This document shows positions 1,848 to 62,464 of a stretch of 64,000 nucleotides of DNA, piece by piece. This DNA comes from Lactococcus lactis. Lineage in GTDB: Bacteria > Bacillota > Bacilli > Lactobacillales > Streptococcaceae. A model generated the notes under the pieces. It did not search any database, was not told the DNA's origin, and saw only the letters and a list, made by a program, of their open reading frames with translations. Position numbers and translations under genes: made by a program. The stretch is taken from NCBI RefSeq assembly GCF_029023865.1, contig NZ_CP118969.1, positions 248,001-312,000 of the forward strand, given 5' to 3'. How positions within the stretch are numbered: the stretch's first letter is position 1; each line of letters opens with the position of its first letter.

Positions 1848-1853
1848 GCTTTA

Positions 1854-1859
1854 ATTTTA
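1854..1859 (-). promoter_or_regulatory. -10 element of the flavoprotein gene (leaderless arrangement)
   Basis: On the minus strand, extended TGtTAAAAT is followed by TAAAGC and then the ATG, a gap of six bases. No good -35 is seen. Confidence 0.45.
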
Positions 1860-1952
1860 ACATGATGTGAGCAGAAATAGGGGAAAGAGTATTGAAAAAT
1901 AGTAAATTTAAATTCAGCGAGCGATAAGGCTTTTAAATATTGATATTTGATA

Positions 1953-1981
1953 TTGGAAATCAATATGAAATGCGGTAAAAT
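1953..1981 (+). promoter_or_regulatory. nnrD promoter
   Basis: TTGGAA and TAAAAT are separated by 17 bp, and the start codon is 6 nt after the -10. There is no ribosome binding site between them, which suggests a leaderless mRNA. Confidence 0.5.
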
Positions 1982-1987
1982 AGCATT

Positions 1988-2815: not shown

Positions 2816-2821
2816 TTAAGT

Positions 2822-2863
2822 CTGTCAGTTCAATGCGACCATGGGGAGTATTGAAGTTGGGAA
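2822..2863 (+). repeat. Hairpin repeat, copy 3 of 3
   Basis: GTCAGTT leads into the stem TTCAATG/TATTGAA with loop CGACCATGGGGAG. It belongs to the same family as two copies between ecfA1 and ecfA2; stem bases differ but pairing is kept. Confidence 0.5.
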
Positions 2864-2874
2864 TAAAAAAATTA

Positions 2875-2911
2875 CTGACGAAAATTTCAGTCCTACGTCA
2901 GCATTTTTTTC
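2875..2911 (+). terminator. Terminator after nnrD
   Basis: CTGACG and CGTCAG pair around a 15-nt loop and are followed by a run of seven T. Confidence 0.65.
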
Positions 2912-2964
2912 TTAGAATTTTTGTTATAATTAATCATCAAAATAAATGAAGATGAGGTCAAAAG

Positions 2965-3378
2965 ATGAATGCAATTGAACTTGTGCAAGGCGCCATGAAA
3001 AAAGCAGAGAAAATTCGTCCAAAAGTAGGTGGTTTTCCATACTTGGCTGAATGTATGCGAGAAGCTGGAGTTTTAAAAAATGTTTGGACCCTTCCTGCCG
3101 GACAAAGCACGTTTTGGACAAGCGCTGGCGTAATTAGCGTGACCAATTCACCAATAATGAGTGGTTTTCATGAGGTGTCAGTTTTTGACCAAGAAGATTT
3201 GATTAAGGCCTTGCGGGCTGACCAAGCTGGACAAACGACTTTTCCGGAATTCTTGAGTGCCACTTGGGAAGCTGGTGTGATTTCTTATGAAGCTGATTTT
3301 TCAGAAAGAAAAGTCACTTATCTAGGAAGTCAAGGAGAAAGCTACGTTGAGACCTATCCAGCGGTCGAAATTCATTAA
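2965..3378 (+). CDS. DUF1398 family protein
   Basis: A 137-residue soluble protein that resembles the DUF1398 family (E. coli YbcV-like, sometimes labelled phage envelope protein). Recognisable stretches are GGFPYLAECMREAGVLKNVWTLP and FPEFLSATWEAGVISYEADF, followed by VTYLGSQGESYVETYP. Function is not established, and the phage label is not supported by anything nearby. GAGGT upstream of the ATG serves as ribosome binding site and a TATAAT lies about 40 bp upstream. It appears monocistronic, with a very long inverted repeat directly after the stop. Confidence 0.7.
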   Translation: MNAIELVQGAMKKAEKIRPKVGGFPYLAECMREAGVLKNVWTLPAGQSTFWTSAGVISVTNSPIMSGFHEVSVFDQEDLIKALRADQAGQTTFPEFLSATWEAGVISYEADFSERKVTYLGSQGESYVETYPAVEIH

Positions 3379-3451
3379 AAAGTTACTGACAGAATGATTA
3401 AAATATTTGGTAAAATTATTTACTAAATTAATCATTCTGTCAGTAACTTTT
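3378..3451. repeat. Perfect 24-bp inverted repeat (terminator-like)
   Basis: Two perfect 24-base arms (3378-3401 and 3428-3451) are separated by 26 bases. Each arm contains ACTGACAG or CTGTCAGT and ends in A4 or T4, so it can terminate transcription from either side. It starts on the DUF1398 stop codon and lies just before the promoter of the ABC operon. Confidence 0.85.
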
Positions 3452-3471
3452 CTGTTAATTTCTGATAAAAG

Positions 3472-3480
3472 TGCTATAAT
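3472..3480 (+). promoter_or_regulatory. Extended -10 promoter of ABC exporter operon
   Basis: TGCTATAAT is an extended -10; no clear -35 is seen because the position is close to the long inverted repeat. Confidence 0.55.
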
Positions 3481-3509
3481 ATTTGAATGAAAACTAAGAA
3501 AAATAAAGA

Positions 3510-3530
3510 GAAACTACTAAGAGTAGTTTC
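3510..3530 (+). promoter_or_regulatory. 9-bp dyad before the ABC operon ribosome binding site
   Basis: GAAACTACT and AGTAGTTTC are perfect inverted arms with loop AAG, located in the leader between promoter and GGAGAAAAGGGG. It could be a repressor operator or an mRNA hairpin. Confidence 0.5.
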
Positions 3531-3548
3531 TGGAGAAAAGGGGAAATT

Positions 3549-5384
3549 ATGCTAACGATTGGAAGGCGATATTTAAATTTTTGGCCTGTATTTTGGGCAC
3601 TTTTTTTGTTAGTTATTCAAGTTGTGACTAATCTTTGGCTTCCAACGATTACAGCGGATATTATCAATAAAGGCATTGGTCAATCTGATATGAAATATAT
3701 CTGGTTTATGGGTCTAATTATGCTTTTCGTTTCTCTGGCCAGTTGGCTTTCGGCAATTGGAAATGTTTATTTTGCTTCCAAACAATCTCAAGGATTGGGC
3801 CTGAAATTACGCCATGTTTTATTTAAGAAAGTTTTATTCATGGACGAGCGCAATTTTCAGGAATTTGGTGATGCAACTTTAATTACACGTACAACAAATG
3901 ATGTGACTCAATTGCAAAATGTCTTTCAAACGATGTTACGAATGATGCTCATGGCGCCAATGATGCTCATTGGTTCTATTTTCATGGCTTGGAAATTATC
4001 GCATGATTTACTGCTGGTTTTTTTGATTGCCTTGCCTATTTTAACTTTGGCTGTCGTCATTAATATTGCTATTTCCATGCCACGGTTTCGGTCAATGCAA
4101 ACAAAAGTTGATAAAATTAATCTGATTTTTCAACAAGGCTTGACTGGTGTTCGGGTGATTCGTGCTTTTAGACGAGACCAATATGAAATTGATAAATTTG
4201 ATGAGGCTAACCGTGATTTGACACATACCAGTCAAGTGGTTTTGACGACGATTGCGATGTTAATGCCAATTATGACAGTTATTCTCAGTTTTACAAATAT
4301 TGGAATTGTTTGGTTTGGCGCTCATCTTATCAGTAAAAATATGATGGAAATGGGTTCATTAGTTGCCTTTTTGACCTATGCCACACAGATTTTGATGTCA
4401 TTTATGCAACTATCAGCAGTTGCTGTCATGGTGCCACGAGCTCAGGTTTCAGCTGTTCGAGTTCGAGAAATTTTAGAATCTAAAGATAAAATTACTGATG
4501 AAAATTCGAGCATATCCGTAGAGGCGCTAAGACGCCAACGGCTATCCTCTGACGGAAATGACAAGTTGTCTGAAAGCAATTCTGTCCGCAATTCTCTAGC
4601 TCTTAATCATGTGTCTTTCAAATTTGATGAAGCAAAAAGACAAGCGCTAAGTGACTTGTCAGTAAATGTAGCAGCTGGTCAGACCTTAGCAATTATTGGG
4701 GGGACTGGTTCTGGTAAATCAACGATTTTGAATTTGATTGCCAGATTAATTGACCCGACAAATGGAAGTGTCACAATTGATGGTACTGATATTCGCCAAA
4801 TTTCACAGTATGACTTGCATGAAAAAGTTTCTTTTACGCAACAAAAAGCTCAACTTTTTTCGGGAACTGTCCGCTCGAATCTTCAATTTGGGAAAAGTGA
4901 TGCAACAGATGAAGAAATGTGGCAAGCTTTGGAAATTGCACAAGCTGCTGATTTCGTTCGTGAACAAGGTGGACTTGAGCTGGCGGTCGAACAAAATGGC
5001 GCAAATTTCTCTGGTGGTCAAAAACAAAGAATTTCGATTGCTAGAACCTTGATTAAAGAGGCAGAAATTTATCTATTTGACGATTCATTTTCGGCCTTGG
5101 ACTTTGCTACTGACAGACAATTACGAACAGCTATTAATCATTCGGAAAAACATAAAAATAAAATCAAGGTGATTGTGGCTCAAAGAATCGCAACCGTTAT
5201 GTCAGCTGACCAAATCTTAGTTTTAGAAAATGGAATTGCCGTAGGACTTGGTACTCATGAAAGTTTGGCAAAATCATGTCCGCAATATCAAGAAACAATG
5301 CAATCTCAACTCTCGGATGATGATTTGGTCAAGATGGGTGTTTCAATTGCACATTTGACCGCCAGAGGAGGTGATGACCAATGA
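3549..5384 (+). CDS. ABC exporter half-transporter, catalytically degenerate subunit
   Basis: A 611-residue type IV ABC exporter half: six membrane segments up to about residue 300, then an ATPase domain with Walker A GGTGSGKS (about 384-391), signature NFSGGQKQR (about 487) and Walker B YLFDDS, in which aspartate replaces the catalytic glutamate. Such a subunit pairs with a partner having a normal Walker B, as the next gene does. The linker between the membrane and ATPase domains (about residues 313-352) carries a roughly 40-residue hydrophilic insert encoded by a hairpin repeat also found between genes at 17.6 kb. The stop overlaps the next start by four bases. Substrate is unknown; drug or lipid export is the usual role. 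Confidence 0.88.
   Translation: MLTIGRRYLNFWPVFWALFLLVIQVVTNLWLPTITADIINKGIGQSDMKYIWFMGLIMLFVSLASWLSAIGNVYFASKQSQGLGLKLRHVLFKKVLFMDERNFQEFGDATLITRTTNDVTQLQNVFQTMLRMMLMAPMMLIGSIFMAWKLSHDLLLVFLIALPILTLAVVINIAISMPRFRSMQTKVDKINLIFQQGLTGVRVIRAFRRDQYEIDKFDEANRDLTHTSQVVLTTIAMLMPIMTVILSFTNIGIVWFGAHLISKNMMEMGSLVAFLTYATQILMSFMQLSAVAVMVPRAQVSAVRVREILESKDKITDENSSISVEALRRQRLSSDGNDKLSESNSVRNSLALNHVSFKFDEAKRQALSDLSVNVAAGQTLAIIGGTGSGKSTILNLIARLIDPTNGSVTIDGTDIRQISQYDLHEKVSFTQQKAQLFSGTVRSNLQFGKSDATDEEMWQALEIAQAADFVREQGGLELAVEQNGANFSGGQKQRISIARTLIKEAEIYLFDDSFSALDFATDRQLRTAINHSEKHKNKIKVIVAQRIATVMSADQILVLENGIAVGLGTHESLAKSCPQYQETMQSQLSDDDLVKMGVSIAHLTARGGDDQ
4488..4559 (+). repeat. 72-bp hairpin element inside an ABC transporter gene
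   Basis: It contains ATATCCGT ... ACGGCTAT (near-perfect outer arms) around GGCG-CTAAGA-CGCC. A second copy, about 80 percent identical by eye, is at 17648-17718 in an intergenic region. Here it is read through in frame. Confidence 0.7.
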
Positions 5385-8053: not shown

Positions 8054-9073
8054 TTATTTAGAAAAACCATTTTCCAAAGTTTTAATGACAGCCAAAATTT
8101 GTTCATCGGAAACCAACTTGTCAGCTCCATTAATAATTGATTCATAAGCTGAATCATAAACTCTACCATAATCACCAGCAACCGTTGGAATATGCTTCAC
8201 AATGCGGTCACCATTTTGATTGAAATAGGTAAGTTGCCCAAAATCAGCTGGACTGTCTTGCCCAAAACCTTCATCACCTGGGAACATGCCAACTTTTAAA
8301 TCATTTTCTTGTTGGTCAACATCCATTTTGATGAAAGTTCCTCTCGTACCATAAACAAGCCATTTTGGATGTGGTAGAGCAGCGACTTCAGTAGCAGCAA
8401 CAGTTGCTCGCAAGTTTGGATAAAGAAGATTGACAGAAAAATAATCATCGACACTGTCATAATCTCTTGTTGCTCGAATATCATATTGAACTTCTTTGGG
8501 AGCGCCAAAAAGTGAAACCATTTGGTCCACTAAATGAACACCGTGACCATACCAAGCGCCATCAAAATTTCCACCTTGACTGGCATCATTAGGTCTAAAG
8601 TGGTCCATATTGACAGTGATATCTACCAAATCACCCAAATAACCTTGCTCAATCACTTTTTTGACGGTTAAAAAGTCGCTGTCAAAGCGTCGATTTTGGA
8701 AAGGCATGAAGAAAAGATTTTTTTCTTTGGCAAGAGCTACCAATTCTTTAGCTTGTTCCAAGGTTTCGACTAATGGTTTATCACAGAGTACATTTTTTCC
8801 AGCTGAAAGGAGTTCCTTAGCATAGTCATAGTGAGCAAAAGCTGGAGTCACAATGACTACTAAATCAATTGAATCATCATTAATAATATCAGCGATGTCG
8901 GTGGAGAACAAAGTTCCATTTGCTTCTAATTCTGCTTGTTCAGGACGTTTTCCTAAAGTCCGGTTGACAATTCGTTTAATCACAATATTCTCACGTTCTT
9001 TCACGTAAGGAATATGATAGCGATTTGTTGATTTACCAAAACCAACATAGGCAATATTAAGCTTTTTTGTCAT
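8054..9073 (-). CDS. Gfo/Idh/MocA family oxidoreductase
   Basis: A 339-residue NAD(P)-dependent sugar-type oxidoreductase. The N-terminus KLNIAYVGFGKSTNRYHIPY is the Rossmann nucleotide site, and CDKPLVETLEQAKELVALA is the family's EKP-like catalytic segment. GAWYGHGVHLVDQMVSLFG lies in the C-terminal substrate domain. Substrate cannot be told from sequence. I place the start at MTKKLNIAYVG because GGAGAATAAAAAG precedes that ATG; a longer frame would add 18 residues that overlap the upstream small gene. It overlaps that gene (minus strand, upstream) by 17 bases and is probably co-transcribed with it. Confidence 0.85.
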   Translation of the reverse strand: MTKKLNIAYVGFGKSTNRYHIPYVKERENIVIKRIVNRTLGKRPEQAELEANGTLFSTDIADIINDDSIDLVVIVTPAFAHYDYAKELLSAGKNVLCDKPLVETLEQAKELVALAKEKNLFFMPFQNRRFDSDFLTVKKVIEQGYLGDLVDITVNMDHFRPNDASQGGNFDGAWYGHGVHLVDQMVSLFGAPKEVQYDIRATRDYDSVDDYFSVNLLYPNLRATVAATEVAALPHPKWLVYGTRGTFIKMDVDQQENDLKVGMFPGDEGFGQDSPADFGQLTYFNQNGDRIVKHIPTVAGDYGRVYDSAYESIINGADKLVSDEQILAVIKTLENGFSK

Positions 9074-9224
9074 TCTTTTTATTCTCCATTTTGGCACGGA
9101 GGGCTTCAATTTTAGCTTGAGTGGCATTTTTTGTATTAATGCCTTTTCCGCCTACCGTTGAGTTTTTTTCGTGAAATTTTCCGACAGATTTCTGTCCTTT
9201 ATTATCAAGTTGATATTTTCCCAT
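9057..9224 (-). CDS. Conserved-looking small basic protein (55 aa)
   Basis: An uninterrupted 55-codon frame beginning MGKYQLDNKGQKSVGKFHEK and ending AKIEALRAKMENKKNDKKA. It is hydrophilic and basic with a helical C-terminus. A stop lies in frame a few codons upstream, so the ATG is the only start. It overlaps the oxidoreductase start by 17 nt, which suggests coupling. I recall similar small proteins beside this oxidoreductase in streptococci but cannot verify that. No proximal Shine-Dalgarno is seen; AAAGGA lies about 40 nt upstream beyond a TTCAGTA/TACTGAA hairpin. Function unknown. Confidence 0.6.
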   Translation of the reverse strand: MGKYQLDNKGQKSVGKFHEKNSTVGGKGINTKNATQAKIEALRAKMENKKNDKKA

Positions 9225-9302
9225 AAGATAAATTAGGTTTCAGTAAGTAAAGTGCCTACTGAATTCAGTTCCTTTCTAAGTGGATTTGACTGATAAAAGT
9301 CA

Positions 9303-9335
9303 AAAAGTTACTGACAAGAGCTGTCAGTAAAAATT
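9303..9335 (-). terminator. Octamer-pair terminator downstream of luxS
   Basis: TTACTGACA and TGTCAGTAA pair around a short loop; on the minus strand the hairpin is followed by CTTTTTG. It is about 80 bp after the luxS stop. Confidence 0.65.
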
Positions 9336-9411
9336 TGGCCGATTAAATTCCTTACTAAAGGAAATGAAGTTGCACTTGTAATTTAAAAATGCTGAACTTT
9401 TGGAGTAAACT

Positions 9412-9888
9412 TTAAATTACTTTACGTTCGTAAGGGTCAGTAGAAATTCCTTCAGAAAGAATTTTCTTAGACCATTCTTTAGCACCGAAAAGTGAGTGAT
9501 TACGGTAATTTCCGCATTCTTTTTCAGCAACACCAGGGACATTATCCCAACCAAATTCGTCACTTGCAAGCTCTTCTAGAGAAGATTTAATTACTTTAGC
9601 AATTTCTTCTGAACTATGTTCACCCCACATAATCATGTGGAAACCAGTTTGACATCCAAAAGGTGAAAAGTCAATCATGCCATCAATTCTATCGCGAATT
9701 AAACTAGCCATGCTATGCTCAATAGTGTGTAAAGCGGCCATTCCAATGGCATTCGCATTAGGTTGAACAAAACGAACGTCAAAATTAGTGATAACATCGC
9801 CTTTAGGCCCAGTTTCGCTACCGATTAAGCGGACATAAGGGGCAAGTACTTTTGTGTGGTCTAATTGAAAAGATTCTACTTCAGCCAT
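9412..9888 (-). CDS. luxS: S-ribosylhomocysteine lyase LuxS
   Basis: A 158-residue metalloenzyme of the activated methyl cycle that cleaves S-ribosylhomocysteine to homocysteine and the autoinducer-2 precursor DPD. Metal ligands are visible: HTIEH (H54, H58) and C125 in [12 protein letters not shown]; catalytic C79 is in FGCQTGF. Length is normal for the family. The start codon has no adjacent ribosome binding site: a perfect AAAGGAGGA lies about 50 nt upstream and a hairpin between them restores spacing. Monocistronic, divergent from the GyrI-like gene. Confidence 0.97.
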
Positions 9889-9947
9889 AAGATATAGGAT
9901 ACAAAACTCAGCTGTTAAAAGTCAGCCTTGTTAGTATCTCCTCCTTT
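9889..9947 (-). promoter_or_regulatory. luxS split ribosome binding site bridged by a hairpin
   Basis: On the minus strand: AAAGGAGGA, then GATAC...GTATC closing a 41-nt hairpin with inner pairs AAC/GTT and GGCTG/CAGCT, then CTATATCTT and the ATG. When folded, the Shine-Dalgarno sits about 9-10 nt from the start; unfolded it is about 50 nt away. Confidence 0.6.
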
Positions 9948-10004
9948 ATTTTAAATTCTAATTCTATTCTATCATTTTTTGAGCGAAATATTTTTTCATT
10001 TTAA

Positions 10005-10031
10005 TTATAAAGTGGTAAAATGACTTTATAA
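10005..10031. promoter_or_regulatory. Operator-like dyad between luxS and the GyrI-like gene
   Basis: TTATAAAGT and ACTTTATAA are perfect 9-bp inverted arms with a 9-bp spacer (GGTAAAATG) in the divergent promoter region. Confidence 0.5.
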
Positions 10032-10101
10032 CGGTTTCAAAAGAAGCCTTATTGCTTAAAAAAGCAAGAAACATCATTGTCAAAAAGAGTGAGGAGGGGA
10101 A

Positions 10102-10566
10102 GTGAACATCAGAGAAGTTGAAAAGTCATCTTTCTCCATCATTGGAAAAGAAGGCTTAGGTAAAGCACAAGAAGCTGACATTTGGATTCCACCACTCTGG
10201 CAAGAAGCAACCAACGCTTTTGAGGAAATTATTCATTTGATTAAGCAGCCACTCACAATTTGGGGGGCCATGTCTGATGAATCAGGGCAATTTAAACCAT
10301 GGAATAATGGTGGACTCTATCTGGCATGTGTTGAAGTTGAAAATTCAGCGCAAAAGCCTGAAAATTGGACTAAATGGACACTTCCAGGCTTTCGTTATTT
10401 CGTTGTTGAAACAACAACTTATGAAATGAACAAGACTTATTCAGATATGTGGAATTATTTAACTCAAAATGATTTAAAAATTGTTGGAGCAGTACAAGAA
10501 CATCAATCAATTTCAGCAGAAAATCCTGAAGAGTTAGAACTATGGTTTCCAATTGAAAGAATATAA
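10102..10566 (+). CDS. GyrI-like / effector-binding domain protein
   Basis: A 154-residue single-domain protein of the GyrI-like (SOUL/effector-binding) fold, the domain found fused to AraC- and MerR-type drug-sensing regulators. Supporting features are the opening REVEKSSFSIIGKEGLG, the central WGAMSDESGQFKPWNNGGLYLACVEVE and FRYFVVETTTYEMNKTYSDMW, and the closing LELWFPI, typical of the fold's last strand. No DNA-binding domain is attached, so it may bind small hydrophobic ligands alone. GTG start with GAGGAGGGG upstream. It is followed by an aldo/keto reductase 65 bp downstream, probably in one transcript. Confidence 0.75.
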   Translation: MNIREVEKSSFSIIGKEGLGKAQEADIWIPPLWQEATNAFEEIIHLIKQPLTIWGAMSDESGQFKPWNNGGLYLACVEVENSAQKPENWTKWTLPGFRYFVVETTTYEMNKTYSDMWNYLTQNDLKIVGAVQEHQSISAENPEELELWFPIERI

Positions 10567-10630
10567 AAGTCCAAATAGTTTCATTGATGACGAGTTGTTG
10601 TATTTCAAAAATTACTAAGGAGAAAAAATC

Positions 10631-11476
10631 ATGACATTAACAGACACTTACACACTAAACAATGGCATTAAAATTCCAAAAGTTGGCTTTGGAACTTGGC
10701 AATCTGCGAGCGGAGAAGAAGCTTATAATGCGGTAAAAGCAGCACTTGAAGCAGGATATCGTCATATTGATACAGCGGCAGTTTATAAAAATGAAGAATC
10801 AGTCGGTCAAGCAATTGCTGATTCAGGAATTCCCCGTGAGGAACTTTTCGTTACAACAAAACTTTGGGGTGTAGGAACAACAGAGGACGCTGCGAAAGCC
10901 TTGGATGAATCCTTGAAAAAATTGGGACTTGATTATGTTGATTTGTACCTCATTCATTGGCCAAATCCTAAAGCATTCCGCCCTGATTTTGAAACACGTA
11001 ATCTTGCAGTTTGGAAAGCCATGGAAGCAGGCGTAAAAGCTGGTAAGATCCGTGCAATTGGTGTTTCAAACTTCCACCCACGTCACCTAAAACCATTGTT
11101 GAAATTTGCTGAAATTAAACCAGCAGTTAACCAAATTATGGTCAACCCAAGTGATCAACAAGAAGAAATTGTAAGTTTTAATGTTGACAACAATATCTTG
11201 ACTGAGGCTTACAGCCCACTTGGAACAGGTAAAATCTTTGAAGTTCCAGAACTTGCAGACTTGGCAAGTAAATACAACAAGAGTATTGCTCAAGTGGTAT
11301 TGCGTTGGTCTCTTCACAAAGGATATTTACCACTTCCTAAATCAGTAACCCCTGCAAGAATTAAAGAAAATGCAGAAATCTTTGATTTTGATTTAAGTAT
11401 TGAAGATATTGCTTTTATTGACAGCCTTCATGGAAAAGCTGGTTTGGCTAAAAACCCTGATGAAGTTGATTTCTAA
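10631..11476 (+). CDS. Aldo/keto reductase (2,5-diketogluconate reductase-like)
   Basis: A 281-residue TIM-barrel NADPH-dependent carbonyl reductase. The catalytic tetrad is present: D and Y in HIDTAAVYKNEESVG, K in FVTTKLWG and H in YLIHWPNP. Cofactor-binding pieces IRAIGVSNFHPRHL, VNQIMVNPS and LPKSVTPARIKENAEIFDF follow in the usual order. Such enzymes reduce diketogluconate, methylglyoxal and other aldehydes; the true substrate is not readable. AAGGAG lies before the ATG. It probably shares a transcript with the GyrI-like gene, which hints at a detoxification role (inference). Confidence 0.9.
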   Translation: MTLTDTYTLNNGIKIPKVGFGTWQSASGEEAYNAVKAALEAGYRHIDTAAVYKNEESVGQAIADSGIPREELFVTTKLWGVGTTEDAAKALDESLKKLGLDYVDLYLIHWPNPKAFRPDFETRNLAVWKAMEAGVKAGKIRAIGVSNFHPRHLKPLLKFAEIKPAVNQIMVNPSDQQEEIVSFNVDNNILTEAYSPLGTGKIFEVPELADLASKYNKSIAQVVLRWSLHKGYLPLPKSVTPARIKENAEIFDFDLSIEDIAFIDSLHGKAGLAKNPDEVDF

Positions 11477-11555
11477 AGAATAATTATGAACATATTTTAC
11501 TGACAGATTGTTTACATCTCTTAAAAGACAGCAGAGAATTTGGTCAGTAATTTAA

Positions 11556-11594
11556 AAAAGGCCTGTCAGTAAAATTTTGCTGACAGGCTTTTTA
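11556..11594 (+). terminator. Terminator after aldo/keto reductase
   Basis: GCCTGTCAG and CTGACAGGC pair with flanking A and T runs; it is another inverted octamer pair. Confidence 0.85.
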
Positions 11595-11641
11595 GATTTT
11601 TGCTACAATAAAGAAAAATGATCAAATATCAAGGAGAAATG

Positions 11642-12154
11642 ATGAAAAAAGCACTTGTTTTAGTTGATTTTCAAAATGACTTTATTGATGGAAGTTTGGG
11701 CACGAAAGAAGCACAAGCCATTATCCCAAATGTTATTGAAAAACTCTCTCAATATTCTAAAGAAAATCGTCTAGCAACCCAAGACACCCATTTTGAAGAT
11801 TATTTAACGACACAAGAAGGCAAAAATCTGCCAGTTATTCATTGTCAAAATGGTACTTTTGGTTGGGAAATTCGTAAAGAAGCTCAAGTTGGCTTTGCTA
11901 AAATTTTTGAAAAAACAACTTTTGGTTCCAGAACATTGGCAGAATTTATTCGAGATGAAAATTATGATGAAGTTGAACTTGTCGGAATTTGTACGGATAT
12001 TTGTGTTGTTTCCAATGCCTTGTTAATCAAAGCCTATGCGCCAGAAGTAAAAATAAGTGTTGATGCTTCTTGCTGTGCTGGAGTTTCACCTGAAAAACAT
12101 TTGGCAGCACTTGAAACAATGCGTTCTTGTCAAATAGAAATCACGAATGCCTAA
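11642..12154 (+). CDS. Isochorismatase-family cysteine hydrolase
   Basis: A 170-residue hydrolase of the nicotinamidase/isochorismatase superfamily. The catalytic Asp is in MKKALVLVDFQNDFIDGSLG, the Lys region is around FEKTTFGSRTL, and the nucleophilic Cys is in VELVGICTDICVVSNALL. This is the small nicotinamidase-like form; the amide substrate is not known. The start is chosen as the second ATG of GGAGAAATGATG, which has proper spacing to AAGGAG; a longer frame would add eight residues. Monocistronic, with terminators on both sides. Confidence 0.85.
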   Translation: MKKALVLVDFQNDFIDGSLGTKEAQAIIPNVIEKLSQYSKENRLATQDTHFEDYLTTQEGKNLPVIHCQNGTFGWEIRKEAQVGFAKIFEKTTFGSRTLAEFIRDENYDEVELVGICTDICVVSNALLIKAYAPEVKISVDASCCAGVSPEKHLAALETMRSCQIEITNA

Positions 12155-12165
12155 TTTTGGTAAAA

Positions 12166-12190
12166 AGTTACTGACAGGTCTGTCAGTAAT
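12166..12190 (+). terminator. Octamer-pair terminator after cysteine hydrolase
   Basis: TTACTGACA-GGTC-TGTCAGTAA, a 9-bp stem, with flanking A and T residues. Confidence 0.75.
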
Positions 12191-12196
12191 TTCAAC

Positions 12197-12225
12197 TTGA
12201 CAAAATCCGTATGATAATTGATAAT
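12197..12225 (+). promoter_or_regulatory. Promoter of the nucleotidyltransferase-like gene pair
   Basis: TTGACA-N17-GATAAT; the -10 lies about 47 bp before the chosen TTG start. Confidence 0.65.
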
Positions 12226-12272
12226 GGAGTGAGAAATAAGAAAAATTTTGAAGGTGAGTGCGAGGTATAAAT

Positions 12273-12821
12273 TTGGATTATCATCAATTATTTTCCCGCT
12301 TGAACGAAAAACTTTCAGAAGAAAATTTGCAACTTCACTTACATTGTGTTGGTGGTTTCGTCCTTGAATACTATGGAATGAAGGCAACAGAGGATATAGA
12401 TGCCTTTTATGAAAGTACCGAAAAAGTTGAAAAAATCATTCAAGAAATTGGTGAAGAATTTCATGTCGGAACCTCTAATGAACCTTGGTTGAGTCAAGCA
12501 GTCGGCGAAGTCATGTCTCATTCAAAAACAGATGAAACAATTATTTTTGTGGAAAGTCATTTGACTGTTGGTCTGTCATCACTCGAATCTATTCTTATCG
12601 ATAAAATACAGGCTGGCCGAACCAAAGATGTTCCAGACATCGCAAAAATAATGAAAAAATTAAAAATTGAAAGCCCAGATCCTCTCTTAGAACGATTTAA
12701 ACATACAGATGGTTCAGCAGACCCAGCGGTCATTTTAGAGGCTTTTAGTTTAGCTTACGGCGAAGAAGCCTTAAAAAATTATTTACGAAAAAATCCAAAA
12801 ATACTGAGGTTATTGCAATGA
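12273..12821 (+). CDS. DUF6036-like nucleotidyltransferase-fold protein
   Basis: A 182-residue protein whose LHCVGGFVLEYYGMKATEDIDAFY resembles the GG-x(n)-DxD core of minimal nucleotidyltransferases of the DUF6036/AbiEii type. The middle (SHLTVGLSSLESILIDKIQAGRTKDVPDIAKIMKKL) also fits, where such proteins have a conserved K and R. I prefer a TTG start preceded by GAGGT at suitable spacing; a GTG five codons earlier has its Shine-Dalgarno too close. It overlaps the next gene by 4 bases. Nucleotidyltransferase genes paired with a small partner are often toxin-antitoxin modules, but here this is only an idea. Confidence 0.65.
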   Translation: MDYHQLFSRLNEKLSEENLQLHLHCVGGFVLEYYGMKATEDIDAFYESTEKVEKIIQEIGEEFHVGTSNEPWLSQAVGEVMSHSKTDETIIFVESHLTVGLSSLESILIDKIQAGRTKDVPDIAKIMKKLKIESPDPLLERFKHTDGSADPAVILEAFSLAYGEEALKNYLRKNPKILRLLQ

Positions 12822-13102
12822 CGTGGATTGAATATCTCCTGAATGCTGCTCAAAAGTCTAAATGGAATTTAGAACTTTGGGTCCGTTATTTAAATAAAGC
12901 GATTCAACGGGACAAAATTTTACTTTCAAAAACAGATATTGATTATTTAATGAGTTCTGAAGAATTAACTTCTTTTCAACGCGTTTTTCTTGAACTCGCG
13001 CTTGAAAAAGAAACAACACCTTGGGAAATGACTGTTGGCATGTCTGAACCGACTCAATCGATTCATCTTCAGTCTGTTTTAAAAGAATTAAAAAAAGAAT
13101 GA
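12818..13102 (+). CDS. Unknown 94-aa partner of the nucleotidyltransferase-like gene
   Basis: A 94-residue protein, MTWIEYLLNAAQKSKWNLEL..., predominantly helical and soluble, coupled by an ATGA overlap to the upstream gene. I do not recognise a family. The strict coupling and absence of any other gene in the transcript suggest the two products act together or bind each other. A bidirectional terminator follows. Confidence 0.65.
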   Translation: MTWIEYLLNAAQKSKWNLELWVRYLNKAIQRDKILLSKTDIDYLMSSEELTSFQRVFLELALEKETTPWEMTVGMSEPTQSIHLQSVLKELKKE

Positions 13103-13126
13103 ATTAACTTTCATTCTTTTTTTATT
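13092..13126. terminator. Bidirectional terminator (gene pair / acmA)
   Basis: AAAAAGAATG and CATTCTTTTT form a stem flanked by long A and T runs between convergent genes. Confidence 0.8.
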
Positions 13127-13140
13127 TTATAAATTACAAT

Positions 13141-14460
13141 TTATTTAATACGAAGATATTGACCAATTAAAATGGTATCACTTGATAAATGATTCCAAGC
13201 CTTAATTGAAGCAATTGGGCTACCAGATTTTTGTGAAAGTCCCCAAAGCGTATCTCCTTTAACAACCTTATGGATAGAGGTATTTGAAGCTGCAGAAGAG
13301 TTAGAAGTTGAACTCGTAGAGGCTGAGCTTGAACCTGTTGAAGAACTTGAAGAACCGGCAGATTGTGAAACAATCAAGTTTTGTCCAATGAAAATTGTAT
13401 CAGAATTCAAATGATTCCAACTCTTGAGTTGAGCAATCGTCGTTTTATATTTGACAGAGAGTCCCCAAAGCGTATCACCAGATTTAACCTTAATCGTCGT
13501 CTGTGAAGCTGGTTTGGCAGGAGTGACCGAAGTAGTAGGCGTTGTAGTTCCGGCAGAATTTCCTGAAGAAGTTGAACTATTTGTATTAGACGAAGAACTT
13601 GAAGTTGTCAATACAAGCTTTTGCCCAATATAGATGACTGTACTTTTAAGATTGTTTGCGCTTTGAATTTGAGCAACACTAATTCCATATTTTTGCGAAA
13701 TTCCCCAAAGTGTATCGCCAGATTTAACTGTATAAGTGGTTGAGCTTGTATTTGAATTATTATTGGTATTTGTAGCTGTTGAACCACCGGAATTAGAAGT
13801 ACCAGCAGAAGAAGCACCGTCAAAACGAGTCAAATTATATTGAGAAATAATTCGATTCAGGGAAGCACCATAATTAGGGTCAGTTGCATATTTTCCTGTT
13901 AAGGCTGCGGTTGCCGCTTGATAGGTTGCCGCGTTTGCTCGCCAAGCTTTAGCATAATAAGGACCATTTCCAAAGTTTGTAGTTTTTAAAACATAAGCAT
14001 TATCTTGGAAACTTTGATTAAAGGAAGGATAAACCCTAAATGGCATATCTTTTGTGACCCATTTACCATTGAGATATTCTTGAGTTTTAAAAACAACGCT
14101 TTTTCCTTGATAAGTTCCTTGAATACCGAATAAATTATAATAGGGGGCACGAGAAAGTTGGCTTGAACCCCAGTTACTTTCCAAAATAGCTTGAGCAATC
14201 ATAACTGAAGGATAAAGACCATTACTATCGGCAACTGGTTTTGCTGATGCAGCAATACTTTCAATAAAAGCTTCTGTCGAATTGGTTGCAGCCTGAACCA
14301 TTGGGCTTGTTTGTTGGAGCAAAAGCTCATGAGTGGTCGTCAAAGTTCCTGCAATGAGAACAGCGCCAGCAAATTTGGTCGCTGGTTTATAAAAAGCCAG
14401 TGGTTTTTTGGCTTTCTTTTTTAAATGTCTATTTTTAACTTTAATACGAGAAACTGGCAT
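13141..14460 (-). CDS. acmA: Major autolysin AcmA (N-acetylglucosaminidase with three LysM)
   Basis: A 439-residue secreted peptidoglycan hydrolase needed for cell separation and autolysis. The order is a long signal peptide (about residues 1-57, basic RHLKKKAKK then hydrophobic, cleavage near VQAATN), a GH73 glucosaminidase domain (about 60-218) with catalytic E94 in AQAILESNWGSS, then three LysM cell-wall-binding repeats (each YTVKSGDTLWGIS-like with a closing IGQKL/IGQYL) separated by Ser/Thr/Asn-rich linkers. SD AAAGGAA precedes the ATG. It differs in length by a few residues from the 437-residue protein I know from L. lactis, in the linkers. Confidence 0.97.
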   Translation of the reverse strand: MPVSRIKVKNRHLKKKAKKPLAFYKPATKFAGAVLIAGTLTTTHELLLQQTSPMVQAATNSTEAFIESIAASAKPVADSNGLYPSVMIAQAILESNWGSSQLSRAPYYNLFGIQGTYQGKSVVFKTQEYLNGKWVTKDMPFRVYPSFNQSFQDNAYVLKTTNFGNGPYYAKAWRANAATYQAATAALTGKYATDPNYGASLNRIISQYNLTRFDGASSAGTSNSGGSTATNTNNNSNTSSTTYTVKSGDTLWGISQKYGISVAQIQSANNLKSTVIYIGQKLVLTTSSSSSNTNSSTSSGNSAGTTTPTTSVTPAKPASQTTIKVKSGDTLWGLSVKYKTTIAQLKSWNHLNSDTIFIGQNLIVSQSAGSSSSSTGSSSASTSSTSNSSAASNTSIHKVVKGDTLWGLSQKSGSPIASIKAWNHLSSDTILIGQYLRIK

Positions 14461-58789: not shown

Positions 58790-59008
58790 ATGGCTGATAA
58801 ATTAAAATTTGAAATCATTGAAGAATTGATTGTTCTCTCTGAAAATGCAAAAGGTTGGCGTAAAGAATTAAATCGTGTTTCTTGGAATGATGCCGAACCT
58901 AAATATGACATTCGTACTTGGTCACCTGACCATGAAAAAATGGGTAAAGGAATTACTTTATCTGAAGAAGAATTTGGTGTTCTCTTAAAAGAATTAGGAA
59001 ATAAATAA
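58790..59008 (+). CDS. ydbC: PC4-like single-stranded DNA-binding protein YdbC
   Basis: A 72-residue protein, MADKLKFEIIEELIVLSENA ... KYDIRTWSPDHEKMGKGITL, a minimal homologue of the eukaryotic coactivator PC4, known by structure from L. lactis as a DNA-strand-binding dimer. Four strands and a C-terminal helix (SEEEFGVLLKELGNK) agree. AAAGGA before the ATG. It lies 36 bp after murA and probably shares its transcript. Confidence 0.9.
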   Translation: MADKLKFEIIEELIVLSENAKGWRKELNRVSWNDAEPKYDIRTWSPDHEKMGKGITLSEEEFGVLLKELGNK

Positions 59009-59034
59009 AAGCCCTGAGATTTCAGGGCTTTTTA
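59008..59034 (+). terminator. Terminator after ydbC
   Basis: AAAGCCCTGA-gat-TTCAGGGCTTT followed by T. Confidence 0.92.
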
Positions 59035-59039
59035 ATTTT

Positions 59040-59867
59040 TTAATGCTCGGTCTCAAGAGAGTTGAAAAGTTTAAAGACTTCGCTATAAGAATTTAAAAGA
59101 GAAGAGGCCTCATGATTCTCAGGATTTATTTTCAACTCATATAATGCTTTCAAATAGACCGTAGTTACTTTTTCGTAAAAAAATAAATCACTCTTAGTAT
59201 GTGACTCAAGATATGTAAAAAGCAAGGGGAGAGAATCTAAAAAATTATTTTCTATAAATATGGGAATGAGGCGAAGAATTATCTTAAGAATTTTAGGACT
59301 GATAAAGTCTAAATATTCATCTTCAGCGGATATAATTTTTTGAATTAATTGCTCTTGTGTTTTATTATCAAGGAGAGAAAGACAAGAGCTATACAGATAA
59401 AGTTCATAGGCACAGAATTTATTAATTGAAAGCAGATATTCTTTTAGATAGAGAGTATCTTTTTTATTTACTTGAATATTAGGGTCAATCAGATGAAGTT
59501 GGGATTTGATTTGGATAATATTGAGTTTGTGACATTTTATACTGGGGTGAAGCGTAAGCAAGTCGGTCTCTATTTTAAGGAGCTGATGAAGTTTTTCTTT
59601 ATCTTCAATTTCAAATTTTTGACAAAAGTCATAATTAAAAAGAGGGCCTTTAGATAAGTTAGAAAAATAGGCTTCATGATAAAATTCCTCAAGACTGACA
59701 TTGATTGCCTTAAGACTACTAAGAAACTTTGTAAGCGTCATGTCCGTTTTCCCTCTTTCAAATTTGGAAATTTGAGCATAAGAAATATCTTCGCTAGCCA
59801 CTTCTTTAATTTCCATATTTTTAAATTTTCTCAGCCTTCTAAAGGTTCTTCCTAAGTTAGTATCCAT
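59040..59867 (-). CDS. Rgg/MutR family transcriptional regulator
   Basis: A 275-residue regulator. The N-terminal XRE helix-turn-helix is MDTNLGRTFRRLRKFKNMEIKEVASEDISYAQISKFERGKTDMTLTKFLSSL; the remaining about 215 residues are helical repeats like the peptide-binding domain of Rgg proteins (LSINKFCAYELYLYSSCLSLL). GGAGAAAGTT fixes the start at MDTNLG. Rgg proteins sense short hydrophobic peptides imported by the oligopeptide permease. It is divergent from the tiny ORF/FecR-like/ABC cluster, the classical layout of a regulator and its target. Codon use is more AT-rich than neighbours. Confidence 0.85.
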   Translation of the reverse strand: MDTNLGRTFRRLRKFKNMEIKEVASEDISYAQISKFERGKTDMTLTKFLSSLKAINVSLEEFYHEAYFSNLSKGPLFNYDFCQKFEIEDKEKLHQLLKIETDLLTLHPSIKCHKLNIIQIKSQLHLIDPNIQVNKKDTLYLKEYLLSINKFCAYELYLYSSCLSLLDNKTQEQLIQKIISAEDEYLDFISPKILKIILRLIPIFIENNFLDSLPLLFTYLESHTKSDLFFYEKVTTVYLKALYELKINPENHEASSLLNSYSEVFKLFNSLETEH

Positions 59868-59915
59868 AACTTTCTCCATATGTTCATATATGATTATTTT
59901 TGTTTATTTAAAGCG

Positions 59916-59974
59916 TTGACTTTAATGTTAATAATATTATATAATAATTTCATAATTTTCAGTTAATTAAAGTC
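59916..59974 (+). promoter_or_regulatory. Promoter, inverted repeat and CodY-like box of the Rgg-linked operon
   Basis: TTGACT-N18-TATAAT (59916-59945). GACTTTAAT (59918-59926) and ATTAAAGTC (59966-59974) are perfect 9-bp inverted arms around the -10 and start site. AATTTTCAGTTAATT (59954-59968) matches the CodY consensus at 13 of 15 positions just after the start site. Rgg and CodY control are inferred. Confidence 0.6.
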
Positions 59975-60008
59975 TTTTGATTTTATATATTGAAAGAAGG
60001 TGGGTCCA

Positions 60009-60029
60009 ATGCAATGCTTAAGATTATAG
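60009..60029 (+). CDS. Possible mini-peptide ORF (MQCLRL)
   Basis: ATG with a good ribosome binding site (AAGGTGG, spacing about 5) followed by six codons and TAG, in the leader of the FecR-like gene. An overlapping frame gives MLKIIV (ATG 60014), which extends to the 14-residue KEGGSNAMLKIIV-type peptide if a TTG at 59990 were used. Either could be a leader peptide, an Rgg pheromone or an exported peptide; none is proven. The strong Shine-Dalgarno is the only direct evidence. Confidence 0.35.
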   Translation: MQCLRL

Positions 60030-60065
60030 TATAACCGAAAAAATAAAAGTATGGAGGAAAAATAG

Positions 60066-60716
60066 ATGAATTATATAGATGGAAAAGCTATTGGTAGCCA
60101 TGAAGTATATTTAAATAAACTTGGGAGTGCTACACTTAATGCTACTTATAGAGTCACTTATGTTAGCCAAAGTTCAAATTCTGCAACAGTTATGGTAAAT
60201 GGAGAATTATTAGACTTGAAAGTTGGGACAATTATTTATGAGGGGCAACTTATCAGTACGAATTCTTCGCACGTGGAAATCATCAGTAGCATGAATCAAT
60301 TATATAGATTAGGAACAGAAAGTGAATTTTGTATCGAAAATACGGCTGAGGGTATGTTGCCAGTAGTTTTTGGAAAGGTTTATCGTAAATTTTTACGTGG
60401 AATTCCAGAATTTATTTCAGGTGGAAAATATCGTACAAGTTGTTGGAATGGTATGGAAGAAACAGCTATCTTAAATTTGGACGGAACCAAAGATGAGTAT
60501 TATAGTTTTGAAAATGCTGTAAATATTTATGAGTATGATGAAGCAGGGCGACAATTTCAAATTGCTCATATGGAGCCATTTACTAAAATGATTCTTTCAT
60601 TTGATGAGAGTAGTAAAATGAGACAAAGATATAAAGTTTCTAGTGTTTTGGAAATGACTAATAGGGAGATAGATTGGATTTACAATGTCTTTGTGAAGCC
60701 TATTAACTGGAGATGA
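60066..60716 (+). CDS. FecR-like domain protein of unknown function
   Basis: A 216-residue protein with no signal peptide and no membrane segment. Residues about 45-95 (VMVNGELLDLKVGTIIYEGQLISTNSSHVEIISSMNQLYRLGTESEFCIE) follow the FecR beta-domain pattern of gain-of-threshold, T-S-S-x-V-E-I and R-L-G-x-x-S-E. The remainder (GKVYRKFLRGIPEFISGGKYRTSCWNG and C-terminal YEYDEAGRQFQIAHMEPFTKMILSFDESS) is unfamiliar. GGAGG start. It overlaps no other gene and is followed one base later by an ABC exporter, so both probably act in one pathway: maturation, chaperoning or immunity are guesses. Confidence 0.6.
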   Translation: MNYIDGKAIGSHEVYLNKLGSATLNATYRVTYVSQSSNSATVMVNGELLDLKVGTIIYEGQLISTNSSHVEIISSMNQLYRLGTESEFCIENTAEGMLPVVFGKVYRKFLRGIPEFISGGKYRTSCWNGMEETAILNLDGTKDEYYSFENAVNIYEYDEAGRQFQIAHMEPFTKMILSFDESSKMRQRYKVSSVLEMTNREIDWIYNVFVKPINWR

Positions 60717-60717
60717 T

Positions 60718-62430
60718 ATGAGAAAATTTAAATCGTATTTTTTGTTGCTTTTTGAGGGATTGAAAACTTTTTCTAAAGCGAGTAGGTGGGGGACTTTTGT
60801 GCTTGTTATTTTGGTTCCGATTGAAGCACTTGTTCCGACAGGGATTATTTTTTCTATTCAAAAAGTAACAACCGAACTGGCTAAAGGTTCGGTTTTTTCG
60901 ATGAGTTGGGGAATTTTTTGGGCAGTTTTGCTTTTGATCTCAAATATTATTCCGCCAGCGACAACGGCTATTTCAGGTTATTTGACGGACGTCTTGATTG
61001 CAAACATTAATCAAAAATTAATAGATAAAGCAAGTGAAATCAAGTCATTGGAAGTTTTTGAAAATGATGAATTCTATAATGATGTGGAAACAGTTAGGAG
61101 TGAACTTTCTTGGCGACCAGTAAATTTAATTGTTTTCACGCTTTCCAATGTTCGTTATATTATTTCTTTACTTTCTTTGCTTGTTTTACTTTTTAACTAT
61201 ACTTGGTGGTTACCTTTAGCAATCGTGATTGTTTTAGTACCTCAAAGTTTAATTCATTATCGAATTCAACAGGAGGCTTTTGAAACTTTGGTAACAAGGC
61301 GACCAGAAGCACGTAAGATGAATTATCTACTAGAAATTGCCTTAAATCGTGATTATGCTAAAGAGAGTCGTCTTTTCAATGTTTTTGATTTTTTGAAGAA
61401 ACGGTATTGGAAACTCTTTTACACGGTACATAAGGAAGAAAATCGGATACGCATGCGACAATTTGGAATTGCTTTGATTTTTATTATTATAAGTTCACTT
61501 GTATCAATGTTCGCTTTTATTTATCTTGTATTTCAAGTTCGTTCAGGTAAATTATCTCTTGGAATTGTCGTAGGTTTTGCTTCAAGTTTGGTTGCAGCAA
61601 TTTCGGCCTCGAATGGCCTAGTAGAGGAATCTGACCTGCTTTATGATACTTTGATGTGGTTGGAGAAATATCTTAAATTGATGAGAAAGTCATTCACTGA
61701 ATCCGGCTATAAAAGTATTACTGAAATCAATCAAATTAGTTTAGATAATGTATCCTTTGCCTATCCAAAAGAAAATCAAAAAGTTCTTAAAAGTATTTCT
61801 CTTGGGATTAAAAAGGGGGAAAAAATCGCTATTGTAGGTCAGAATGGTTCCGGGAAATCAACCTTATTGAAATTATTAGCTGATTTATTTACTCCGACAA
61901 GTGGTCAGATTTTAATTAATAATGAAGATTTAAGAGAAATAAAGCATGAAGACTACTGGGCAAAAATTTCTCCTGTATTTCAGGATTTTTCAAGATTTAA
62001 ATTTTCTGTCGGAGATTCTATTAGTTTTGAAGAGAAAACAGGAGTTGATGAAGCTTTACAATTTTCAGGATTGCCTGATTTGAATTCAGAACTTCAATTG
62101 GGCAAGGAGTTTGGTGGAACTGATTTGTCAGGAGGACAATGGCAGAAGTTAGCAATTGCTAGAGCTTTTTATAAAAATAATGTGGAACTGTATCTTTTTG
62201 ATGAGGCTAATAGTGCACTTGATGTGCACAGTGAAAAACAACTCTATCAAAAATTGATGGAGCTGTCTGCTGGAGCAACAGTAATTTGGATTACTCATCG
62301 AATGACTTCAGTCAAATTATCTGATAAAGTTATCTACTTAGATAAAGGCAAGGTATTAGGGTTTGATTCTCATGAAAATCTGTTAAAAAATGAAAACTAT
62401 GCGTCTTTGTATCGAGAACAATTTGAATAA
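60718..62430 (+). CDS. ABC exporter (membrane-ATPase fusion) of the Rgg-linked operon
   Basis: A 570-residue exporter half with about six membrane segments, no N-terminal C39 peptidase domain, then an ATPase domain: Walker [19 protein letters not shown] (about 377-385), signature DLSGGQWQKLAIARAF, Walker B YLFDEANSALD with an Asn after Glu-Ala, and H-loop WITHRMT. The membrane part resembles lanthipeptide/peptide exporters of the NisT type more than LmrC. It is intact in both catalytic motifs, so it may work as a homodimer. The cargo may be the small peptide of the same operon (inference). Confidence 0.82.
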   Translation: MRKFKSYFLLLFEGLKTFSKASRWGTFVLVILVPIEALVPTGIIFSIQKVTTELAKGSVFSMSWGIFWAVLLLISNIIPPATTAISGYLTDVLIANINQKLIDKASEIKSLEVFENDEFYNDVETVRSELSWRPVNLIVFTLSNVRYIISLLSLLVLLFNYTWWLPLAIVIVLVPQSLIHYRIQQEAFETLVTRRPEARKMNYLLEIALNRDYAKESRLFNVFDFLKKRYWKLFYTVHKEENRIRMRQFGIALIFIIISSLVSMFAFIYLVFQVRSGKLSLGIVVGFASSLVAAISASNGLVEESDLLYDTLMWLEKYLKLMRKSFTESGYKSITEINQISLDNVSFAYPKENQKVLKSISLGIKKGEKIAIVGQNGSGKSTLLKLLADLFTPTSGQILINNEDLREIKHEDYWAKISPVFQDFSRFKFSVGDSISFEEKTGVDEALQFSGLPDLNSELQLGKEFGGTDLSGGQWQKLAIARAFYKNNVELYLFDEANSALDVHSEKQLYQKLMELSAGATVIWITHRMTSVKLSDKVIYLDKGKVLGFDSHENLLKNENYASLYREQFE

Positions 62431-62464
62431 AAAAACTGCTCATTACAATCGGACAGTTTTTTAA
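62428..62464. terminator. Bidirectional terminator (ABC exporter / DUF3397)
   Basis: AAAAAACTG and CAGTTTTTT pair around a 15-nt loop. Confidence 0.8.

Follow-up and report, generated by a model that had tools for sequence, protein, structure and literature searches.

A conserved pair of genes, one for a protein with a FecR-like fold and one for an ATP-binding cassette (ABC) exporter, was recognised in a 64,000-nucleotide stretch of Lactococcus lactis DNA (hereafter the window; assembly GCF_029023865.1, contig NZ_CP118969.1, positions 248,001 to 312,000), where it stands beside a gene of the Rgg/GadR/MutR regulator family (Table 1). An earlier note on this DNA had taken the three genes together as the unit, and had looked to pairs without an Rgg gene as the sign against it. 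Pairs of just that kind occur in the streptococcal genome G615, in Streptococcus parasanguinis and in the Thermaceae, and because the pair there adjoins neighbours other than Rgg, the triad is not the conserved unit. What is conserved is the FecR-like/ABC pair, and the adjoining switch varies between lineages. The established core is a FecR-fold gene directly 5′ of an ABC gene of its own subfamily, both diverging in step, with a regulator that differs by lineage; the regulators of the undamaged copies in Bacillota resemble intracellular peptide sensors. We read the pair as a horizontally moving export and self-protection module under peptide quorum control, and give this reading a probability of roughly 45%.

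The FecR-like/ABC pair

The label “FecR-like” holds for the 216-residue protein at the level of the predicted fold, because two AlphaFold models match FecR-family regulators. The window model, made from 10 sequences (pLDDT 82.7), has Z scores of 11.7, 11.5 and 11.4 to its top three structures (136, 133 and 132 residues, root-mean-square deviation 3.1–3.5), among them PupR 6ovk (Z 11.7, 136 residues, deviation 3.1) and BDI_1681 4m0h (Z 11.5). After these FecR-family structures comes the RTX cell-surface anchoring domain 5ix9 with a Z of 6.3, and all others reach 4.5 or less. The second model, of a Thermus caliditerrae relative (9 rows), gives 12.3, 12.3 and 12.2 for those three structures, with 5ix9 at 6.7; the two results are not fully independent, because their alignments have most rows in common. 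The assignment rests on VIA re-alignment plus this second model, Foldseek alone having returned a best E of 0.02 and no match at E ≤0.001.

The earlier note's FecR-like domain therefore stands as a fold and not as a sequence match: the Pfam FecR model is absent from the matches of 12 family members at E ≤10, the window protein is below every cut-off in Pfam, NCBIfam and PADLOC, and the family profile found nothing meaningful among PDB sequences. No defence or phage family was found with PADLOC, run on the window protein alone, or with PHROGs, which like Pfam was run on the 12 members and gave no meaningful match. TrpR-like and MucB-like Pfam matches (E 0.02–0.03), both under the cut-off and each in 1 of the 12 members, were set aside as noise. 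That the protein is cytosolic, as the note had also said, agrees with the absence of any membrane- or signal-like stretch: the highest 19-residue Kyte-Doolittle mean is 1.02 in the window protein and at most 1.07 in 11 members. Invariant over 11 members are KYRTSC, D143, D158, RY and W215, and the motif is extended to C-x6-C-x2-C in three full-length Thermaceae members.

Its partner is a complete half-transporter with fused transmembrane (TM) and nucleotide-binding (NBD) domains (ABC_tran, 101.5 bits), and since Peptidase_C39 is not among its listed Pfam matches, the description as an exporter without a peptidase is borne out. Of the best 25 NCBIfam models listed for three ABC proteins of the family, not one has its cut-off reached, tetracycline pumps included; bacteriocin_ABC gives the window protein 140.5 bits against a cut-off of 523.85, with its best stretch at 321–564. 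At E ≤1e-150, 8 of 328 Streptococcaceae genomes have a member of this subfamily, six of them together with a FecR-like gene. Its Bacillota members are marked by a SWRPVNLxVF stretch.

The FecR-like family is rare and patchy in the sampled genomes. It was found in 6 of 335 genomes of the Streptococcaceae and 4 of 395 of the order (both counts include the window genome), and in 1 of 398 of the phylum, namely the window genome alone. At class level 13 of 398 genomes matched at E ≤0.1; G000 and G197 were accepted, and the other 11 matches (E 0.005–0.1, short or stop-ridden) were dropped as chance. A scan of genome contigs with the single 216-residue sequence found no match, and the same scan with a two-row alignment found nine loci: L. 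ruminis, S. parasanguinis (L016, record CC87K, the same locus as G197, since the coordinates coincide) and seven in Thermus, Meiothermus and Calidithermus. Plasmids gave no FecR-like relative in three queries of 72,556 records, and the ABC gene matched briefly in 3 plasmid records. Viral contigs gave one FecR-like locus, L032, and none beyond it; a search of them with the ABC alignment returned, among the matches listed, distant ABC proteins only (24% and 23%), which were not used. On L032 (1–9241) the FecR-like gene is alone, with 30% identity and no adjoining ABC gene. Also encoded on this contig are a type II methyltransferase, a phosphoribosyltransferase-like protein of retron type and, by PADLOC (E 1.9e-84), a CARF6 protein.

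The ABC gene lies directly 3′ of the FecR-like sequence in 8 of 10 scan loci (the exceptions being L032 and L029, the latter close to the end of its contig), and no Bacillota locus with a FecR-like gene and without the ABC gene appeared in FecR-profile searches of the family, order and phylum samples. Over 10 loci (the window, L016, L033, L035, L036, L023, L041, L025, L026 and L028), the distance matrix of the FecR-like proteins correlates with that of the ABC proteins (r = 0.94, a value equalled in 0 of 5000 permutations); L027, L029–L032, L034 and L042 were left out as fragments, near-copies or loci without the ABC gene, L030 and L031 being C-terminal parts only. The correlated pair spans Streptococcaceae, Lactobacillales and Thermaceae, with about 30% identity between the FecR-like proteins of the two phyla.

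In the window, the Rgg/FecR-like/ABC locus is a clean, AT-rich insertion, at a site where other transporter genes are inserted as well. This follows from three kinds of observation. First, a gene for a DUF3397 protein is present in 16 other genomes of the genus, and 11 of these have an empty site, with ydbC directly next to that gene, in agreement with the clean ends already noted. Second, at the same chromosomal site G010 (L017, 4997–9317) has an ABC gene 84% identical to ours and two major facilitator superfamily (MFS) genes in place of Rgg and FecR-like, and in G015 (L068), the genome with the closest DUF3397 match by identity, one of these MFS genes is present, in two frames; the remaining three of the five non-empty sites hold other reading frames. 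Third, among 51 non-overlapping window open reading frames (ORFs) of at least 150 residues, Rgg has the lowest GC content, FecR-like the 5th lowest and ABC the 7th lowest, so the raised AT content reported before was found again.

Regulators beside the pair

The divergent regulator of the window is an Rgg/MutR protein, as had been proposed: it passes two curated models, PF21259 (Rgg_C, 61.8 bits, cut-off 27) and TIGR01716 (67.0 bits, cut-off 36.9), with HTH_3 at 20.2 bits under its cut-off of 23. An alternative start, ATG, lies four codons downstream (MDTNLGRT). The nearest solved structures are 4yv6 (68 bits), which we take to be an Rgg2, followed by 7zcv and the MutR-family 10lg; RopB 6dql is matched at 25 bits in the C-terminal part alone.

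At all five Bacillota loci where the FecR-like gene is undamaged, the adjoining regulator has 279–289 residues and can be assigned, more or less firmly, to an Rgg, Rgg-like or PlcR-like type; curated cut-offs are passed by two of the five, and at one locus a PhrA peptide passes its NCBIfam cut-off. In L. ruminis (L023) it is an Rgg above the cut-offs. In G910 (L041, 5434–8904) an Rgg-type regulator falls just under the TIGR01716 cut-off (36.2 against 36.9) and also under that of Rgg_C (22.4 against 27), and stands in tandem with the pair, between genes read as groEL and mutS. Between that regulator and its FecR-like neighbour lies a leaderless peptide candidate, MYPLFPF, behind a perfect AGGTGAT; an ORF passing the same criteria arises in 133 of 2000 shuffles. 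In G615 (L035) the regulator resembles PlcR 2qfc (residues 15–228, E 5e-9) and gives 22.9 bits to RNPP_C, below the cut-off of 26.5. Divergent from it is a PhrA-family peptide gene (NF040904, 116.6 bits, cut-off 40), heading an operon in the order phrA, fecR-like, abc, abc-F. In S. parasanguinis a 282-residue helix-turn-helix (HTH) regulator is divergent from a 29-codon gene ending in DIWRWWGFH, behind GAGGTGA, and aligns end to end with the Rgg profile (259 columns, probability 79%). The WW peptide had suggested a ComR-like identity; after profile comparisons the protein is an Rgg-like relative at best. Some 2.2 kb past the pair, at 11135–13589, that locus also has a PhrA-like stretch, 80% identical and with a single stop inside it, upstream of a gene for a bacteriocin-associated integral membrane protein (TIGR01654, 231.9 bits against a cut-off of 189.35).

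In the Thermaceae the neighbour is of another kind, a protein of 492–534 residues with sub-threshold tetratricopeptide repeat (TPR) matches only, which no regulator model matched; the SARP/BTAD identity that its appearance suggested was dropped, these TPR matches being all that Pfam gave. It is thus the exporter pair that stays and the switch that changes, the type of regulator differing between lineages: those of Bacillota share 12–26% identity with one another, and the two TPR-like proteins compared share 50%. Some of these loci are larger. In T. scotoductus (L027, 1507–10335), radical SAM/SPASM, two MFS and beta-propeller-like genes lie between the TPR-like gene and the pair, the one case among the scan loci of a radical SAM/SPASM gene near it; T. 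igniterrae (L029) has the second MFS and the propeller gene in common with L027, and a similar upstream stretch is repeated ahead of several of those genes. In Meiothermus luteus (L025), the TPR-like and FecR-like genes occur twice (1331–3886 and 8980–11535), base-for-base identical and 7649 bases apart, either a tandem duplication or an assembly artefact.

Could the regulators be mere neighbours? It might be that Rgg has remote targets, and that the FecR-like and ABC genes are unrelated cargo that landed alongside. The regulators are indeed non-orthologous between loci, and the promoter evidence presented below is weak. Set against this are the presence of such a regulator at 5 of 5 undamaged Bacillota pairs, drawn from at least two subfamilies (Rgg and PlcR/TprA) and placed divergently or in tandem, and the clean ends at the insertion site, and we consider chance neighbourhood improbable. 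The broader idea of the earlier note, an export locus controlled by peptide signalling, is strengthened by these regulators, one of them with its PhrA gene, even as the Rgg triad is given up.

Gene decay and the proposed export module

Eleven Bacillota loci found to have this ABC subfamily were compared (G000, G010, G197, G490, G571, G608, G609, G615, G799, G910 and L. ruminis). The ABC gene is intact in all 11 and the FecR-like gene undamaged in 5. It is absent from G010 and G490 and cut to 62 codons in G799; in G571 no ATG precedes residue 60, and in G608 and G609 the 5′ end is out of frame with any start, leaving an ATG-started ORF of 209 codons, so that these last three genes could still be expressed via other starts. 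The regulator is kept at 5 of 5 loci with an undamaged FecR-like gene and at 1 of the 6 others (hypergeometric 0.013; the loci are not all independent), absence here meaning no match to the five regulators within a 12.5–18 kb stretch per locus. The exception is G490, which keeps its regulator and has an 11-codon stub for a peptide gene. From these few and partly related loci we infer that keeping the FecR-like protein is worthwhile under quorum control alone, and keeping the exporter without such control too. This reading fits a costly product and self-protection through the exporter.

In the proposed module, a short imported peptide would switch the regulator at high cell density and fecR-abc would be transcribed, with CodY possibly repressing the promoter in rich medium. 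The cytosolic FecR-like protein would be the partner of the exporter, either binding its product or loading or licensing the ABC dimer, a role that may be likened to that of FecR/PupR domains coupling with a transporter from the opposite side of the membrane. The dimer would export the product and shield the maker from it. If the product harms its maker, an intact ABC gene after loss or damage of FecR-like is to be expected, and likewise the added ABC-F gene of four streptococci (G608, G609, G615 and G571), whose reading frame is open in each of them. The ABC-F protein of L035 gives 384.2 to NF000355 (cut-off 380); its best single match is Vga(F), at 406 bits against a cut-off of 975.

The same pattern of loss would also suit a quite different role, in which the exporter would have the FecR-like protein for its cargo, an effector or bacteriocin-like protein secreted under quorum control, with ABC and ABC-F for self-protection: loss or damage of the FecR-like and peptide/regulator genes beside intact ABC and ABC-F is the pattern of an effector. 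No ORF of at least 50 residues was seen in the L035 operon besides PhrA, FecR-like, ABC and ABC-F, and it is because this operon shows no other cargo gene that the cargo model is retained. The N-terminal half of the protein also weakly matches the RTX anchoring domain 5ix9 mentioned above, a domain exported through an ABC exporter. Conservation over the whole length, an invariant core and the identity that persists between phyla fit a working protein rather than a fast-evolving toxin, however; no signal segment or accessory secretion subunit was seen, and half-size exporters of this type usually move small molecules or peptides. We regard the cargo role as unlikely. Its fullest form is a little more doubtful again: FecR-fold proteins would be a new class of quorum-switched product, exported by the ABC dimer whole or as a piece cut around KYRTSC, and would hit competitors, possibly at the ribosome, with ABC and ABC-F protecting the maker and different peptide switches being recruited.

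A third possibility, which we hold to be rather unlikely, is a plain drug or self-resistance pump that expels a toxin made elsewhere or by competitors, with a FecR-like protein that tunes or senses and a density switch that arms the pump. Companions of resistance or efflux type speak for it (ABC-F in the four streptococci, MFS genes in G010 and T. scotoductus, ABC-2-type genes in Meiothermus), as does an ABC gene that outlives its FecR-like gene; yet a mere tuner would hardly diverge so closely with its pump across two phyla, and the three ABC proteins compared reach none of the listed NCBIfam cut-offs, those of tetracycline pumps included.

The quorum-controlled export module remains our preferred reading, and a number of observations weigh against it. 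Survival of the ABC gene without FecR-like in G010, G490 and G799 means that the FecR-like protein is not essential to every function of the exporter; moreover, G010 and G490 were found via good ABC matches, a route that would overlook any locus lacking FecR-like and having a broken ABC gene. The distance correlation might stem from species history. Peptide control is not universal, because the Thermaceae pair adjoins a TPR-like protein. The S. parasanguinis regulator passes a general HTH model alone and resembles ComR weakly (16 bits, E 0.05, HTH part only), and reading by eye found no convincing small ORF next to the L. ruminis Rgg. In the window, the tiny ORF and the inverted repeat are both at chance level in shuffles, and the locus encodes no precursor peptide, modifying enzyme or protease, for which reason the exported product is a postulate. 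ORF reading and family scans likewise showed no modifying enzyme of the type acting on ribosomally synthesized and post-translationally modified peptides at this locus.

The pair may nonetheless be a portable, population-controlled unit of export or self-protection. FecR domains form the transport-coupled half of cell-surface signalling in Gram-negative bacteria; an unanchored FecR-fold protein working with an ABC exporter, in Gram-positives and Thermaceae, would couple this fold to transport in a new way, and could open a route to the as yet unassigned outputs of the Rgg and TprA systems. Small size, completeness and a host that is probably a food bacterium should make the lactococcal copy directly testable.

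The lactococcal locus and known systems

The gene order in the window is murA, ydbC, rgg, the divergent promoter region of 186 nt, the 216-residue ORF and the ABC ORF, which starts after a gap of 1 nt; beyond it, on the opposite strand, are the DUF3397 gene and bioY. The names murA, ydbC, groEL and mutS were assigned by reading of genes or taken from the earlier note, whose placement of the three main genes is unchanged in Table 1.

Table 1. Coordinates of features at the Rgg/FecR-like/ABC locus, numbered from the first letter of the window
Feature	Position	Strand	Basis or remark
Two-way intrinsic terminator between ydbC and rgg 3′ end	59007..59032	.	11-bp stem, T tract
Rgg/GadR/MutR-family regulator, 279 residues	59040..59879	-	PF21259, TIGR01716
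Promoter-like site of the sigma-70 type (TTGACT-18-TATAAT) for the FecR-like/ABC pair	59916..59945	+	11/12 consensus matches
Perfect 9-bp inverted repeat, GACTTTAAT (59918-59926) / ATTAAAGTC (59966-59974)	59918..59974	.	Possible regulator site
CodY-box-like site AATTTTCAGTTAATT	59954..59968	+	13/15 consensus matches
Candidate leaderless peptide ORF, 6 codons: MQCLRL (60009-60029) or MLKIIV (60014-60034)	60009..60034	+	Shared Shine-Dalgarno-like AAGGTGG
FecR-fold protein (model), 216 residues, family motif KYRTSC[WYF] at residues 121-127	60066..60716	+	AlphaFold model, fold matches
ABC exporter half-transporter, TM and NBD fused, 570 residues, no C39 peptidase	60718..62430	+	Pfam, NCBIfam
Hairpin AAAAACTG (62431-62438) / CAGTTTTT (62454-62461) in the ABC-DUF3397 gap	62431..62461	.	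Terminator-like, read from sequence

The repeat, the tiny ORF and the CodY-like site of the promoter region are candidates, not evidence. Promoter-like sites as good as that of the pair number 22 between 58700 and 62600, against 16.5 expected. The inverted repeat exists, and its arms flank the -10 hexamer TATAAT (59940–59945) rather than running across it as had been claimed; a perfect 9-bp repeat of like span arises in 465 of 2000 dinucleotide shuffles of the region, and is not significant. The CodY box is likewise present at 13/15, one of 7 such sites in the window against 3.0 expected, with at least 7 in 5 of 100 shuffles. As for the tiny peptide gene of the earlier note, ORFs passing criteria identical to those for MQCLRL and MLKIIV are met in 260 of 2000 shuffles, so that the candidate is there and is not distinguishable from chance. 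The hairpin behind the ABC gene was read by eye, its loop exceeding the length limit of the terminator scan.

Among known systems, the nearest in layout are the loci of RopB-clan regulators with leaderless peptides (LCPs), which drive ABC transporter genes as one of three main target classes surveyed; at the ropB-LCP-ABC transporter locus of L. reuteri, the peptide induces the transporter (PMC10518010). As in these loci, the Rgg-family regulator of the window is divergent from an ABC transporter gene and, as a candidate, a tiny ORF for a leaderless peptide; most LCPs are of 8–10 residues and highly hydrophobic, whereas the window candidate has 6 and is unproven. FecR is mentioned 0 times in the main text of the survey (PMC10518010). 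In the pneumococcal TprA/PhrA system, the adjacent targets described are lanthionine peptide loci, and the Rgg144 system is under CodY control (PMC7595303). G615 shares with TprA/PhrA a PlcR-like regulator divergent from a PhrA-family gene (NF040904), here ahead of FecR-like, ABC and ABC-F; no lanthionine genes were seen at L035, and the window has an Rgg and no PhrA match.

On the side of the proteins, the 216-residue protein has in common with the FecR/PupR anti-sigma regulators a predicted fold over about 135 residues (Z 11–12). Unlike them, it has no membrane helix and no room for an anti-sigma N-terminal domain; its partner is an ABC exporter, and no extracytoplasmic function sigma factor or TonB receptor was recognised on reading the neighbouring ORFs, some of which the family scans covered. 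The ABC protein is built like exporters of the LanT/NisT, McjD and MsbA types, with fused TM and NBD domains, about 570–600 residues and no peptidase. MsbA is its best NCBIfam match, below the cut-off, and it differs from all of them as a subfamily of its own, below the listed NCBIfam cut-offs, with no lanthionine or lasso genes recognised nearby. It also differs from the peptidase-containing bacteriocin exporters (PCAT), whose N-terminal C39 domain is missing from its listed Pfam matches. ABC-F ribosomal protection proteins of the Vga type are represented by the L035 companion, which passes NF000355, and the window has no ABC-F.

How new, then, is the locus? The earlier note had called it undescribed, which does not hold for RopB/peptide loci driving ABC genes, already described (PMC10518010), and does hold, as far as the open-access papers listed go, for the FecR-fold partner, of which they gave no report in an Rgg/peptide-ABC locus. 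With peptide-switched ABC loci already published and no such report found for the FecR-fold partner, the locus is of a known kind, and what is new is the family of FecR-fold proteins within it.

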